A stretch of DNA of 64,000 nt, taken from contig NZ_PEFL01000001.1 in the NCBI RefSeq assembly GCF_002754475.1, positions 1,674,001-1,738,000 of the forward strand, read 5' to 3'. The position numbers were made by a program, and so were the translations under genes. Position 1 is the first letter of the stretch. Every line of letters starts with the position of its first letter. A model generated the notes under the pieces. It had not been told where the DNA came from. It made no database searches and saw only the letters and a program-made list of their open reading frames with translations. Positions 1 to 4,901 of this stretch are shown piece by piece. This stretch comes from Comamonas sp. 26. Lineage in GTDB: Bacteria > Pseudomonadota > Gammaproteobacteria > Burkholderiales > Burkholderiaceae_C.

Positions 1-654
1 GGGCTTGAGGCGTGTGGCCTGAAGCCAGGCCAAAAAATCTGCACGCGCAGGGTGCGCGGCCCGCAAGTGACTGATTGATTGAGTGGCGGTTGCCGGGTTG
101 GCGGCGGTGCCGCAGCCATCAATGGCGCACCAGGCAAGACCGGCAAAAGCCCAAGGCTCGCGCCCTTTGCGCGCCGCGCGTTCAAACCACTGCAAAGCGA
201 GTGGCTGGTCGATGCGCACGCCTGTGCCATGCAGATATATCAGGCCCAGCAGCCACGCGGCCTGCGCACTGGCGCTGCTGCTGCCGTAGCCGCTGGCAGG
301 CGAGGCTGTTTTTTGCAGCTGCTCAATTTCTCGGTTCAGCAGCATGCCTGCTGCGGCCTTGGGCATAAGTGTTTCGCCCGGAGAGGGGAGTGGAGGGGCG
401 CTGATGCCGGGTGTCAGAGGCGTGGCCGGTGCCTCAATGCGAGGGCTATCGGTGGTGAGGGGTGGGATGCTCTGCGCAGGCAATGGGGTGCTGGCGATGG
501 GAACTGGTTGAGGTCGCAGAGCGCCCCAGTGGGCAGCCTCCGCAGAGCGGGTGCGAGCCTCTGCCGCCTCGGCACAGACCAAGACCAGGATCAACAGCGC
601 AAGCCCTTGGCTGACTGCCGCGAGGCCACAGAGCTCAGGCTGCTGCCGGGGCAT
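1..654 (-). CDS. Sel1-repeat secreted or periplasmic protein, 3' end outside window
   Basis: The frame is open from an ATG at 654 to the window edge (218 codons), so the C-terminus is missing. A hydrophobic N-terminal stretch (about residues 10-30) looks like a signal peptide or anchor. A Pro/Ser/Thr-rich linker follows. One clear Sel1-like repeat (about residues 130-165, core LGLIYLHGTGV then ALQWFERAARKG) leads into a weaker second one (LAWCAIDGCGT). Sel1 repeats are alpha-helical protein-binding modules. The start codon overlaps the TAA stop of the CsgG-like gene by one base (TAATG), so the two are very likely translationally coupled. A scaffold or accessory role in fibre export is inferred from position only. 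Confidence 0.7.
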   Translation of the reverse strand, partial: MPRQQPELCGLAAVSQGLALLILVLVCAEAAEARTRSAEAAHWGALRPQPVPIASTPLPAQSIPPLTTDSPRIEAPATPLTPGISAPPLPSPGETLMPKAAAGMLLNREIEQLQKTASPASGYGSSSASAQAAWLLGLIYLHGTGVRIDQPLALQWFERAARKGREPWAFAGLAWCAIDGCGTAANPATATQSISHLRAAHPARADFLAWLQATRLKP

Positions 655-2351
655 TACTTCGCTCCTTTTTCGGCGGCTTCAGCGGGCGGGGTCTTGCGGG
701 CGATCACGTTCCAGTTGATGTTTTGCACGACATGTCCCTCGCTGCCCAGCGCTTGCTGGAATCGATCCAGAACACCCTGGGTACCGCGCACATCCTTCAT
801 CACCGTGAGTGCCGGGCCCTGCATGTCCGCAGACAGTCTTGGCATGGCGTCATGGGCCGTCGCGATGCAGATCACGTTTTCGCTACCTGGCTTGCCTGCA
901 TCCAGAATGAAGCCGGGGCTGGGGCTCATCCAGTCTGGAATGCGCACGGCTTGGTCTGCCGATAGCAGCGTGCTGGTCTGCAGAGCATTGGGCAGCAGAC
1001 GTGTGACGGTGCCGGCGCTGTCAACGTAGTAGCAATAAAGGTGCGATGCCTTTGAAACCGTGGCTGACAGGAAGATTTGCTCGCCTTCGGTGAAGGCCGG
1101 GCGGGCGCCAGCGGGCTGGGGGTTTTCCAGCTGCAGGTTGATGTTCCAGGACGGCCAAGGTGAGCGAGATGCCGTGCTGGTCTGCATGCTGTCATTGTTC
1201 CAGCCGATGCGCGTCAGCGTTCCCTCTTGATCGAGACCTACAAAGTTACGCAGCGCGGCTTCGTAGGTGGGAAAAGTGATGGTGCCGCTGACGATCACAC
1301 CTTTGTCCGCTTGAAATTGGGCAAGGGCTTCGCGCAGGGCTGGCGCATTGGCGTTCAGGTTTTCCTGGCTGTTGGGCAGATAGCCGCGGCTGATCAAGGA
1401 GGAGCGCACCAGGCGCAACTGGCCCTCGGGGCCGCTTGCATCAAACCAGTCGCGCATCTGGCGCTGAAAACTGGGGTTGGTCTGATCGAGCATCAGACAT
1501 TGCCAGTAGGGTACGCGAGCCCATTTCCCCACCAGTTCGATCATGGCCAGATCGACCAGAGTGCGCAAAGCGCCTCCGGTTCCCATGGCATAGTCGCGCC
1601 CTACATTGAACCGTACGCCGTAGCTTCCGATGCGGCCTGCGAGATCAAGCCCGTCGCCAGCGCCGCCGATCACCACCTCATTGGCGGAATCCAGCCCCGG
1701 GATGATGGTGCGGGTACGAAAATCTCCCAGATGGGCTTCGAGTGCGACGACGGTGGCGGTGTTGCTTTTGCTGTGTCCAAGATCCACGCGGTCGCCAGAA
1801 ATCCCGGCGGTTCTGCGCTGACTGATCACGTTCTGATCCACAAACGCGATAGCGCCAGAGACGTACAGGGCAGGGCGCTGCAGCTGCATCTGGTTGTTGT
1901 TGAGCAAAATCGTGGTCAGGTTCTGAACAGTGTCCTGACGGGCGATGTCTACTTCGTAATCCACATATCGGAAGGCATTGCTCAGGTGCGACATCTGCGA
2001 AAGCGATGTCACCACCATGTCCTTGACGGCGACCGGCACCTTGCCCGAGAAGTCCGGGAATTGTTTGCTACTGATCAAGGTCGTAGGCAGCTCAGCCGCT
2101 CGCAGCATGTGATCCATGCAGCTGAGCGATTCGGAGAAGCTGGAGATGGAGCGAACCGGGCGAACCACAGGCCGGTTTACCGTGGTTGCCATTTCGTGAG
2201 CGTCAATATGGCGGCGGGCATCTAGTTGGCCGCAGCCCGTATTGGCCAGTATCAGCGCCGAGCCCAGCCAATACCAGAGTTGGGTGATGCGGCCTTTCTG
2301 CAGGCCTTGCCCGGCTTTGAATGTCACTGTCCCCACTTCAGTGCGTTCCAT
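654..2351 (-). CDS. CsgG-like outer-membrane lipoprotein with DUF4384-like C-terminal domain
   Basis: A 565-residue protein. The N-terminus has a hydrophobic segment ending at Cys40 (LILANTGC), an imperfect lipobox. Residues about 55-300 resemble CsgG/HfaB, the nonameric outer-membrane pore that exports curli-type subunits. Visible CsgG traits are a conserved segment before GDFRTRTI and a later block G-A-L-R-T-L-V-D-L-A-M-I-E-L. Residues about 315-375 look like a peptidoglycan-binding-type helical domain. Residues about 415-510 resemble DUF4384 (FTEGEQIFLSATVSKASH). The start is supported by AGAGG six bases upstream of the ATG. At about twice the usual CsgG length of ~280 residues, it is a CsgG fused to cell-wall-type modules. 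It sits in an operon behind a secreted repeat protein, which fits an export role. The fold assignment comes from sequence pattern only. Confidence 0.75.
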   Translation of the reverse strand: MERTEVGTVTFKAGQGLQKGRITQLWYWLGSALILANTGCGQLDARRHIDAHEMATTVNRPVVRPVRSISSFSESLSCMDHMLRAAELPTTLISSKQFPDFSGKVPVAVKDMVVTSLSQMSHLSNAFRYVDYEVDIARQDTVQNLTTILLNNNQMQLQRPALYVSGAIAFVDQNVISQRRTAGISGDRVDLGHSKSNTATVVALEAHLGDFRTRTIIPGLDSANEVVIGGAGDGLDLAGRIGSYGVRFNVGRDYAMGTGGALRTLVDLAMIELVGKWARVPYWQCLMLDQTNPSFQRQMRDWFDASGPEGQLRLVRSSLISRGYLPNSQENLNANAPALREALAQFQADKGVIVSGTITFPTYEAALRNFVGLDQEGTLTRIGWNNDSMQTSTASRSPWPSWNINLQLENPQPAGARPAFTEGEQIFLSATVSKASHLYCYYVDSAGTVTRLLPNALQTSTLLSADQAVRIPDWMSPSPGFILDAGKPGSENVICIATAHDAMPRLSADMQGPALTVMKDVRGTQGVLDRFQQALGSEGHVVQNINWNVIARKTPPAEAAEKGAK

Positions 2352-2449
2352 GATGACCTCTTGAATTTGCTTTTATGGAGTGGATCTGTTTTGTGAGATT
2401 CATTCAGCCCTGAATGAGTCGTGACGCAGCGCTGGCTACCACTTCTTAT

Positions 2450-2848
2450 TCAATTGCAGATATTGATGACATCGCCACGCAGCACCACGACTTGCTCGTT
2501 ATTTCCCATGCCTTTAGGCGCGACAACGCTTCCAATGGACTGATAGCAATTGGTCTGCATGCCCTTGGTCTGCACGGACTGCACAACATCTTTTTCTGTT
2601 TTGATCTCACCGAGGTTGTTGCTATAGGCCTTGGCGGTATAGCGGCTGATTTTGGCGGCGGCATCATCGGGCATCTGCTGGAGATACTGAACGCTGGTAG
2701 AGCGTGTGACGGGCGCAAGAGGGAGCTGCAGATAATTGACGCGTCCGGTAATTGCGACCGGGTCTTCGCCCGGAGCAGCCCAGGCGCTGATATGCGTGGT
2801 CAGCAGAGCCGCCATGAAGGTGCAAAGAATTCGGATAGAGGAAGTCAT
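2450..2848 (-). CDS. Small secreted protein of the fibre operon, unknown function
   Basis: A 132-residue protein with a clear signal peptide (likely cut after ISAWA, about residue 24). It starts behind an excellent ribosome site, TGGAGG six bases before the ATG. The mature part has no family I recognise. It has two Cys (one in QTNCYQS, one in the C-terminal VINICN). It lies between the repeat protein and the CsgG-like exporter, about 99 bp from each, in the same direction. By position it could be a minor subunit, nucleator or chaperone, comparable to CsgB/CsgE/CsgF or HfaD in known systems, but I see no sequence match to those. Confidence 0.75.
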   Translation of the reverse strand: MTSSIRILCTFMAALLTTHISAWAAPGEDPVAITGRVNYLQLPLAPVTRSTSVQYLQQMPDDAAAKISRYTAKAYSNNLGEIKTEKDVVQSVQTKGMQTNCYQSIGSVVAPKGMGNNEQVVVLRGDVINICN

Positions 2849-2947
2849 GACAAGCCTCCAGGCAGTCGCGGTGGATGGCCGTATCGCGTGCGCAAGTACG
2901 GATGCATGTTCAGCCAGCCCATGGCTGGGCCGGCTGAGTTCGCTTGC

Positions 2948-3724
2948 TTAGCGCATTGCGTATGGGCCGCAGGCCGGGCCTACGCAGACCACTGGGGGAG
3001 GATCGCAGGAGTCGTTCGACGCGATGTTTTGATAGGCATGTGCAAAAGCACCGTTGGCCAGATTCGCCACAATCGACGCGCCGTAGATGGATGTGGTCTG
3101 GCTCGAGTTGCCAGAGATGTTCACCTTGCCGTAGTTGGATGACATGTTCTGCACTGCTACAGTGTTGGCGCCCTTGGCGGTGTTGCTGACTGTCGTTCCC
3201 GAGCCGCTGATGCCAACAACTTGGGTGCTGATACCGCTGATGCTCACTTCACCCATATTGCTTGCCGCATTCTGATAGGCAAGCGCTCCATCCCGGCAAT
3301 CTGGTCCAGAGCAGCTGTTGCTGCTGCTGTTGGCCTCGTTCTTCAGCGTTGCACCCACGACATTGGCCGTTTGATTGGAGGTGCCCGTGAAATGGATGCT
3401 CTTATCAATACTCACGGTCCCGACATTCGAAGCCAGGTTCTGTACTGCAACGTCTCCAGCCGATTGGGCCTTGTTGGTGACCACAGCATTGTCAACGATC
3501 GACGTTTGGGTCGAATTACCGCTGACAGTGATGGAGCCTTTGTTGGAGGCGATGTTTTGATTGGCGTAGGCCTTGGATTGCGCCGTGTTTTCGACTCGGC
3601 TGCCATTGACACTGGCGGTTTGCGTAGAGCTACCCGTAATGTTGATGGTGGCCGTGCCATAAGAGCTCGCAGCCATGGCTGCGGTTGCTACAAGACTAAG
3701 AGCAAAGATTGCAATCGATTTCAT
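2948..3724 (-). CDS. Secreted five-repeat protein, candidate amyloid-like fibre subunit
   Basis: A 258-residue protein with a signal peptide (MKSIAIFALSLVATAAMA). I start it at the ATG at 3724 because GGGGAG lies nine bases upstream; a start six codons earlier has no such site. The mature part is five imperfect repeats of about 39-56 residues. Each carries an S-x-Q-T type motif (SSTQT, NSTQT, TSNQT, ISTQV, NSSQT), then V-x-N-x-A, and ends QN-[IALM]-[AS]-SN. Regular Ser/Gln/Asn spacing is typical of beta-solenoid amyloid subunits such as CsgA, although the repeat is about twice the CsgA length. Repeat 3 contains CSGPDC and the tail contains CVGPAC. It is first in the operon with the CsgG-like gene, which suggests it is the exported substrate. 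Function is inferred. Confidence 0.8.
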   Translation of the reverse strand: MKSIAIFALSLVATAAMAASSYGTATINITGSSTQTASVNGSRVENTAQSKAYANQNIASNKGSITVSGNSTQTSIVDNAVVTNKAQSAGDVAVQNLASNVGTVSIDKSIHFTGTSNQTANVVGATLKNEANSSSNSCSGPDCRDGALAYQNAASNMGEVSISGISTQVVGISGSGTTVSNTAKGANTVAVQNMSSNYGKVNISGNSSQTTSIYGASIVANLANGAFAHAYQNIASNDSCDPPPVVCVGPACGPYAMR

Positions 3725-4100
3725 GAGAAGGCTCCCCTGCAAGTTTGAAAGTACCTCTAGCCGTGACGGCTAGAGACAGAGCACCACTGGCATTGCCACC
3801 AACCCTCTGGCTACTTGCTTGTGTTTGCTCAATTCCAGTTTCTGGCCGAAGTTCCATCTTCGATATCACCTTCAGCAGCTACCCAACCAGTAGCAAGCAG
3901 GAACCCTCAATTTCTGAAGTGCCTACAAGAGCAGCGTGTTTCAAAATGAAATCTTGGCCACTTTTTTAAGTGGTAGCTACTAGTTGTAATCTTTGCAATA
4001 TTTGTAATTTGCAATTCATTTTTTCTATCTATCTCGTACTGTCACTGCATCGAAGACTATTGTTTACATTCGATTTCTGCTTTTCTCGAAGGGCGTGATC
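3725..4100. promoter_or_regulatory. Divergent control region of fibre locus 1
   Basis: This 376-bp gap separates the repeat-protein operon (leftward) from the response-regulator gene (rightward), so it must hold both promoters. The right third (about 3950-4085) is clearly more AT-rich than the surroundings. A perfect 8-bp stem (CTCTAGCC and GGCTAGAG, loop GTGAC) lies at 3755-3775, in the probable 5' leader of the repeat-protein mRNA. The palindrome TTTCAAAATGAAA lies at 3939-3951. No convincing -35/-10 pair could be fixed by eye. Confidence 0.5.
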
Positions 4101-4901
4101 ATGGATTTATTTAAATTAGGAGCAAACTTTGTTGCTGCTAAAAGTAAAAGTGATGAATGTGGTGAGGGAGGGCGCGAGATTTTTGATGTCTTTCAAAATC
4201 CCCCATCAATCTGGCCCTCATTCCTGGTGGGGCAGCGCAGTCGGCCCGTGCGCACCGCCATCGTGGATGCAGACTCCCACTTTTTGAAAGTGCTGCATCA
4301 GGAGTTGTGTCAGGACGAGCGCATCCAGATCGTGGGCGAGGCACAGGGGCTCAAGGAAGGTAAGCGGCTGTGCCGTGGGCTGGAGTTCGATGTGCTTCTG
4401 GTGGATGTCAATCTGGCAGATGGATCCGGCTTTCAATTGCTCAGCTATTTGCAGCTGCACAGAGCAAGCTGCCAAAGCATTGTGATTACATCGATGGATC
4501 AGGATGAGAATGTGATCAAGGCGCTGGAGCTGGGTGCATCTGGCTATTTGGTCAAGCATTCCTGGTTTGGCAATTCGGCGCAATCTGTTCTGCAAGTCGC
4601 CAATGGCGGCGCTGCCTTTGCGCCGCATGTGGCCAAAAGATTAATCAAAAATTTTGATACCAAAATATCGGAAATGCGCGGGCGCATGGGCGAAAAGCCC
4701 AAAATTGCAGAGCGATTATCAGACCGTGAAAAAGATATTCTGCGCATGGTTGCAAGTGGGCATACCAGCGCAGAAGTTGGAAAACGACTCAATATAAGTG
4801 CTCTGACAGTAAACACCCATGTCAAAAATATTTATCGAAAACTGCAGGTTCGATCGAGAGCGCAAGCCGTGAATCACGCTTCTATATTTGGAATGCTCTG
4901 A
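4101..4901 (+). CDS. LuxR/NarL-type response regulator, divergent from fibre operon
   Basis: A 266-residue DNA-binding response regulator. An unusual ~50-residue N-terminal extension precedes the receiver domain. The receiver has the acidic pair region VDADS (D56, D58), phospho-acceptor D102 (LLVDVNLADG) and K152 (GYLVKHS). The C-terminal LuxR/GerE helix-turn-helix spans about residues 203-246 (LSDREKDILRMVASGHTSAE ... NTHVKNIYRKLQ). The ATG at 4101 is preferred over a GTG at 4095 because GAAGGG lies seven bases upstream of it. No kinase gene adjoins it. It is a paralogue of the regulator at 48446-49210, sharing the Trp-Pro/VGQ-x-S-x-PVR lead-in and the SWFG(N/D)-S-Q-VLQVANGGA block. By position it probably controls the fibre operon, like CsgD. 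Confidence 0.9.
   Translation: MDLFKLGANFVAAKSKSDECGEGGREIFDVFQNPPSIWPSFLVGQRSRPVRTAIVDADSHFLKVLHQELCQDERIQIVGEAQGLKEGKRLCRGLEFDVLLVDVNLADGSGFQLLSYLQLHRASCQSIVITSMDQDENVIKALELGASGYLVKHSWFGNSAQSVLQVANGGAAFAPHVAKRLIKNFDTKISEMRGRMGEKPKIAERLSDREKDILRMVASGHTSAEVGKRLNISALTVNTHVKNIYRKLQVRSRAQAVNHASIFGML

Follow-up and report, generated by a model that had tools for sequence, protein, structure and literature searches.

The first 4.9 kb of a 64,000-nucleotide stretch of the 4.7 Mb genome of Comamonas sp. 26 (contig NZ_PEFL01000001.1, positions 1,674,001 to 1,738,000; this whole stretch is the window, to which unprefixed coordinates refer) carry a gene cassette that probably encodes a self-contained surface-fibre assembly system, built on a divergent CsgG-type pore with a non-curlin and probably amyloid-like subunit. 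The proposal is drawn from gene co-occurrence, gene order, profile-level homology of the exporter to CsgG and a predicted solenoid in the subunit. Four genes lie on the minus strand, in the 5′ to 3′ order repeat protein, small secreted protein, CsgG-like lipoprotein and Sel1-repeat protein, opposite one plus-strand response regulator; open reading frames (ORFs) and Pfam matches place all five as claimed in an initial reading of the bare sequence (the sequence-only reading). The start codon of the Sel1 gene and the stop codon of the exporter gene overlap by 1 base, and the remaining two intergenic gaps are ~100 bases each. Inspection by eye gave the signal peptides and the lipoprotein Cys. The features of the cassette are:

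2948..3724, minus strand: secreted repeat protein, proposed fibre subunit, 258 amino acids (aa) (ORF, ATG at 3724; signal peptide at approximately residues 1–18)
3014..3655, minus strand: five tandem units of the repeat protein (unit spacings and consensus)
2910..2937, minus strand: RNA hairpin directly 3′ of the subunit gene, 12 pairs, 4-base loop, no U-run (folding)
2450..2848, minus strand: small secreted protein, 132 aa, proposed CsgE/CsgF-like accessory (ORF; alignment of relatives)
654..2351, minus strand: predicted CsgG-like outer-membrane exporter lipoprotein, 565 aa (ORF, profile alignment, structure model, Foldseek)
1452..2162, minus strand: CsgG-like domain, exporter residues 64–300 (hhalign; low-confidence model)
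1257..1415, minus strand: peptidoglycan-binding-like domain, exporter residues 313–365 (PF01471)
855..1094, minus strand: DUF4384 domain, exporter residues 420–499 (PF14326)
1..654, minus strand: Sel1-repeat protein that runs past the window edge, with a signal peptide (ORF, Sel1 match)
4095..4901, plus strand: divergent NarL/LuxR-type response regulator (Response_reg and GerE matches)

Recurrence of the gene set in other Comamonadaceae, raised as a question in the sequence-only reading, was found. An identical set of 20 among 150 family genomes holds the subunit, the small protein and a strong exporter match (more than 500 bits), the three 150-genome draws being taken as one set from their genome handles; 15 further family genomes have weaker exporter relatives only (260 bits or less) and lack matches to the subunit and the small protein. 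Among 300 genomes of the order the subunit is present in four. In the genomes searched, the repeat protein was never seen without the exporter, which accompanies it in 20/20 family and 4/4 order genomes; these searches scored part of the first-look candidates only, and misses are therefore possible. In all, searches with the repeat protein found 78 proteins and those with the small protein 66, own proteins included. Subunit, small gene, exporter and Sel1 gene are complete in 41 of 48 public loci, always in the same order (41/41), and the cassette is cut by a contig end in the remaining seven. Where there is room, the subunit gene precedes the exporter gene in 42/42 loci and the small gene in 44/44, the Sel1 gene follows it in 45/45, and a divergent regulator is present in 35/38 (lacking in L036, L041 and L047); loci with too little flank, set aside from these counts, number 6, 4, 3 and 10, respectively. 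L005 falls outside the 35/38, as its LuxR-type gene (L005:565-1380) is co-oriented with the operon, against the usual divergent layout. Two subunit genes are found in two Lysobacter loci (L045, L047) and in two of five Polaromonas loci (L034, L035), by analogy a CsgA/CsgB-like arrangement. The nearest named relative found is Comamonas suwonensis, with an exporter 99% identical. In L046 (Diaphorobacter aerolatus; L046:7647-9715) the exporter is split over two overlapping frames and may be disrupted or misassembled.

The Pfam CsgG model (PF03783) has no match in the Comamonas genome and none in 38 aligned exporters; a control search with the same model was positive in 4/14 genomes, including E. 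coli and Caulobacter. With distant relatives included in the exporter profile, hhalign gave a colinear alignment to E. coli CsgG plus four relatives over 162 columns (score 40.4, probability 63%), and one of 99 columns to a 29-member CsgG family (score 42.5, probability 74%). The top scores of 100 column shuffles were 21.5 (five-sequence set) and 16.3 (29-member set), and the reversed control reached 14.2. Scored singly against the exporter profile, E. coli CsgG ranks first of the 29 family members (28.8), compared with a background maximum of 18.9 among 135 ORFs of 200–450 aa from six loci, a set that includes shadow frames and from which exporters were removed by length only. The 162-column alignment spans both CsgG hairpin regions, at the places where we take these to lie. 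The AlphaFold2 model of the exporter is weak (predicted local distance difference test, pLDDT, 62.5; residues 88–174 below 50), with two long predicted β hairpins (residues 166–210 and 215–256). CsgG or CsgG–CsgF complex entries occupy ranks 1–8 of its Foldseek list (best E value 7.8e-4, low template modelling scores), followed by gasdermin and other β-pores; CsgG is not among the VIA-align matches of this low-confidence monomer model. Because of the profile alignment with its shuffle controls and Foldseek ranks 1–8, we read the N-terminal domain of the exporter as a relative of CsgG, which itself forms a nine-subunit, 36-strand barrel (PMC7738311). The CsgG likeness claimed earlier thus stands at the level of profile homology and Foldseek matches, not at that of the Pfam model, and a non-CsgG fold was not seen, as far as the low-confidence model shows.

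Two additional parts proposed for the exporter were also recovered. DUF4384 is clear (PF14326, E value 8.1e-17) and present in 38/38 aligned members, own protein included, at E values up to 1; PG_binding_1 (PF01471) is weak in the Comamonas protein (E value 0.011) but recurrent across members (37/38 at E values up to 1, best 6.3e-08). The lipoprotein Cys, Cys40, is nearly invariant.

The repeat protein contains five copies of a motif, Q[NS]x[AGS]SN, that was picked after inspecting the sequence and whose count was reached in 0 of 20,000 shuffles. Spacings between units are 39, 56, 41 and 40 residues, the longest bearing a Cys-containing insertion, compared with 23 ± 5 residues for the curlin repeat (PMC10192328), which bears out the proposed unit of about twice CsgA length. 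Cutting 207 units of 34–44 residues (199 after removal of duplicates) gave a 39-residue consensus with N23, Q34 and N35 conserved, the Q and final N columns being preset by the cutting pattern, and with ladders of Ser, Gln and Asn along the units. The curlin repeat (PF07012) has no match in the Comamonas genome and QxGxxN is absent from the repeat protein. AlphaFold2 predicts an all-β solenoid (pLDDT 80.8; predicted template modelling score 0.79), the fold that had been anticipated for this gene. In Foldseek the amyloid FapC ranks first, as a weak match (E value 1.4e-3, prob 0.23), and the match to CsgA is also weak.

The same model could be accommodated by CsgG-pore secretion, with release or display of a folded β-solenoid adhesin or matrix protein that does not polymerise in an amyloid-like manner. 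Generic β-helix adhesins and lyases make up most of the VIA list of the repeat protein, the Cys insertions present in the Comamonas-type subunit would suit a disulphide-bonded folded protein, and the weakness of the FapC and CsgA matches points the same way. However, operons elsewhere carry two subunit genes for products of two units of ~33–38 residues, small for an adhesin and reminiscent of CsgA/CsgB, and Ser, Gln and Asn ladders extend along the units. A pore of CsgG width, as in curli, suits unfolded subunits. We consider a folded adhesin unlikely, but a reading to be taken seriously.

In the small protein, C101 and C131 are invariant across 31 members and the C-terminal end is VVVLRGDVINICN. 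No credible Pfam family was found for it, and its profile does not single out E. coli CsgE or CsgF (P 0.30 and 0.38). Searches of the whole Comamonas genome gave no Pfam match to CsgE or CsgF, extending to the genome, at Pfam level, the absence of CsgE/CsgF-type genes that had been described for the operon. The Sel1 protein is 414 aa when complete (L002:11410-12654), and the fragment in the window matches the Sel1 repeat with an E value of 4.9e-09. The regulator matches Response_reg (1e-16) and GerE (7.1e-20), inspection by eye suggests that it keeps the usual receiver residues Asp, Thr and Lys, and it scores 50.7 bits against the CsgD model (cut-off 250). As parts of the system, the Sel1 protein and LuxR-type regulator hold for the Comamonadaceae form (Sel1 in Lysobacter too) but fall outside the core shared with distant relatives.

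The hairpin at 2910–2937 is GC-rich, and the folding z-score for the window's own locus is −3.3 (all z-scores from mononucleotide shuffles). Across 43 loci, the 93-base stretch 3′ of the subunit stop codon has a median z-score of −2.3 (below −2 in 25/43), compared with −0.2 (below −2 in 3/43) for the stretch 3′ of the small gene. A hairpin here would fit production of the subunit in excess over the exporter.

Like curli, the cassette combines a CsgG-related lipoprotein exporter with a secreted Gln/Asn/Ser/Gly-rich repeat subunit at the same locus, and has the regulator divergent from the subunit genes, as on the E. coli csg map; linkage of subunit and exporter with a LuxR-type regulator, a curli trait, is also present. 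Differences are an exporter of 565 aa with two added parts (CsgG, 277 aa), units of ~40 residues (curlin, 23), no Pfam curlin repeat, CsgE, CsgF or CsgG in the Comamonas genome, a receiver-plus-LuxR regulator far under the CsgD model cut-off and an added Sel1 gene. The curli likeness first proposed is a remote resemblance, in a genome that gives no match to the Pfam models of CsgG, CsgE, CsgF or curlin. Fap is not known to include a CsgG-type exporter and uses FapF. FapC repeats, compared by description only, have a conserved Asn near 20–22 and Gln/Asn near 31–37 (PMC12392863), resembling N23, Q34 and N35 of the consensus found here. FapC nearly always has three units (PMC12822426), joined by linkers of ~30 residues or more (PMC12392863), compared with five units without long linkers in the Comamonas protein. 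MafA of Neisseria, an outer-membrane lipoprotein oligomer that secretes a specific partner and for which its authors suggest a resemblance to CsgG (PMC7738311), is alike by description in being a possibly CsgG-like lipoprotein oligomer with a dedicated partner, but the type of partner is unlike the repeat protein.

The Hfa proteins are similar in placing a CsgG-like protein beside a CsgA-like secreted one: HfaB is CsgG-like, and HfaA is CsgA-like and forms multimers resistant to sodium dodecyl sulphate (PMC6707917). On this pattern the exporter and repeat protein could be an HfaABD-like holdfast anchor that tethers polysaccharide to the outer membrane, a role for which a peptidoglycan-binding-like part would be suitable. 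The Pfam CsgG model, the one profile applied to this question, is however positive in Caulobacter and silent in the Comamonas genome, and no polysaccharide genes were recognised among the neighbours read, a genome-wide holdfast search not having been made; we regard an anchor as improbable. An envelope- or peptidoglycan-sensing operon, with a non-pore, LpoB-like CsgG domain and a periplasmic repeat protein, is more improbable still: the CsgG superfamily does include non-pore lipoproteins, and envelope proteins often carry peptidoglycan-binding-like and Sel1 parts, but E. coli LpoB scores 11.4 on the exporter profile where E. coli CsgG scores 28.8, the alignment covers both CsgG hairpin regions, with long strands there in the low-confidence model, and in the genomes searched the repeat protein is found only together with the exporter.

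For the fibre-assembly system proposed here, the subunit would enter the periplasm unfolded via Sec. The lipoprotein would form an oligomeric outer-membrane barrel, held to the cell wall through its peptidoglycan-binding-like part and with its DUF4384 domain on the periplasmic side. The small Cys-paired protein might act as a CsgE- or CsgF-like gate, chaperone or nucleator, assisted by the Sel1 protein, and an amyloid-like fibre would grow by end-to-end stacking of exported subunits. The hairpin 3′ of the first gene would allow the subunit to be produced in excess, and the response regulator would switch the operon, its position recalling that of csgD opposite csgBA.

Exporter matches were found in 12/369 genomes of the class and 25/398 of the phylum, and eight genomes that do not belong to the family have long relatives (300–375 bits); seven of the eight lie outside the class as well. 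An upstream small protein ending G(D/S)x(I/V)(N/S)xC is present in 9/28 fetched distant or secondary loci: L088, L089, L090 and L131, from genomes with the full system, and L119–L122 and L125, from outside the class, which retain subunit, small protein and exporter. In the latter five the exporter is not followed by an adjacent Sel1 gene but by secreted-looking proteins of other kinds, or by no evident partner, and no such regulator was detected beside the exporter. Several other distant loci have short secreted repeat proteins upstream without such a small protein, and in some (e.g. L124, L126, L127) neither was found by these tests. Among 17 distant subunits, chosen by eye from the locus lists, the strongest period is 32–39 residues in 16; a curlin profile gives them scores no higher than those of shuffled sequences, and two (L082, L087) have three QxGxxN each. 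These data tentatively suggest, as a possibility we would put just short of even, a third widespread class of functional-amyloid machinery besides curli and Fap, in several families and beyond the class of Comamonas. It would be defined by a CsgG pore with peptidoglycan-binding and DUF4384 parts, a two-Cys partner ending G(D/S)xINxC, repeats of ~32–41 residues and, often, two neighbouring subunit genes.

No literature describing the system, or joining DUF4384 to CsgG, was found by title or abstract in a search that left most subscription journals outside; CsgG with Sel1 turned up in a record on Pseudovibrio genomes. A GTDB-wide survey of curli and Fap was built on existing Csg and Fap profiles (PMC12822426), and these standard profiles would be expected to miss the present system; if a third class exists, surveys using standard Csg profiles would overlook it. 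If correct, the proposal would add, for Comamonadaceae, Lysobacter and other members of the phylum, an unnamed branch of CsgG-type secretion that has a subunit class to itself. It would provide a defined matrix protein for biofilm work in these bacteria, and mean that non-curlin repeats can be served by a CsgG pore and that such a pore can bear its own cell-wall anchor. With neither CsgE nor CsgF recognisable among its partners, the system also allows the minimal needs of a CsgG pore to be addressed.

Several loci have further features. One genome (G262) has the system twice (L088, L089), and in L088 a two-unit subunit has upstream of it a 243-aa protein (L088:4432-5163) whose sequence shows a clean period of 35 residues. 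Besides the full cassette of L131 (G133, same genus), other contigs of that genome yield three matches to the Pfam CsgG family, and therefore the new-type cassette and the Pfam CsgG family can coexist. At L093:5689-10995 (G167) a 1190-aa ORF with a secreted-looking start has a second, weaker exporter relative as its neighbour, a hint that far bigger partners may be served by other CsgG-like exporters of the family. A secreted-looking protein of 101–119 aa with a conserved CWQ stretch is found downstream of the exporter in L119, L121, L125 and L082, and, likewise downstream, a 233–289 aa protein with PP(S/N)xxE(I/L) near its start recurs in L119, L120, L121 and L125. Genes upstream of the Comamonas cassette (L002:5862-10202) resemble a set for aromatic ring-cleavage catabolism.

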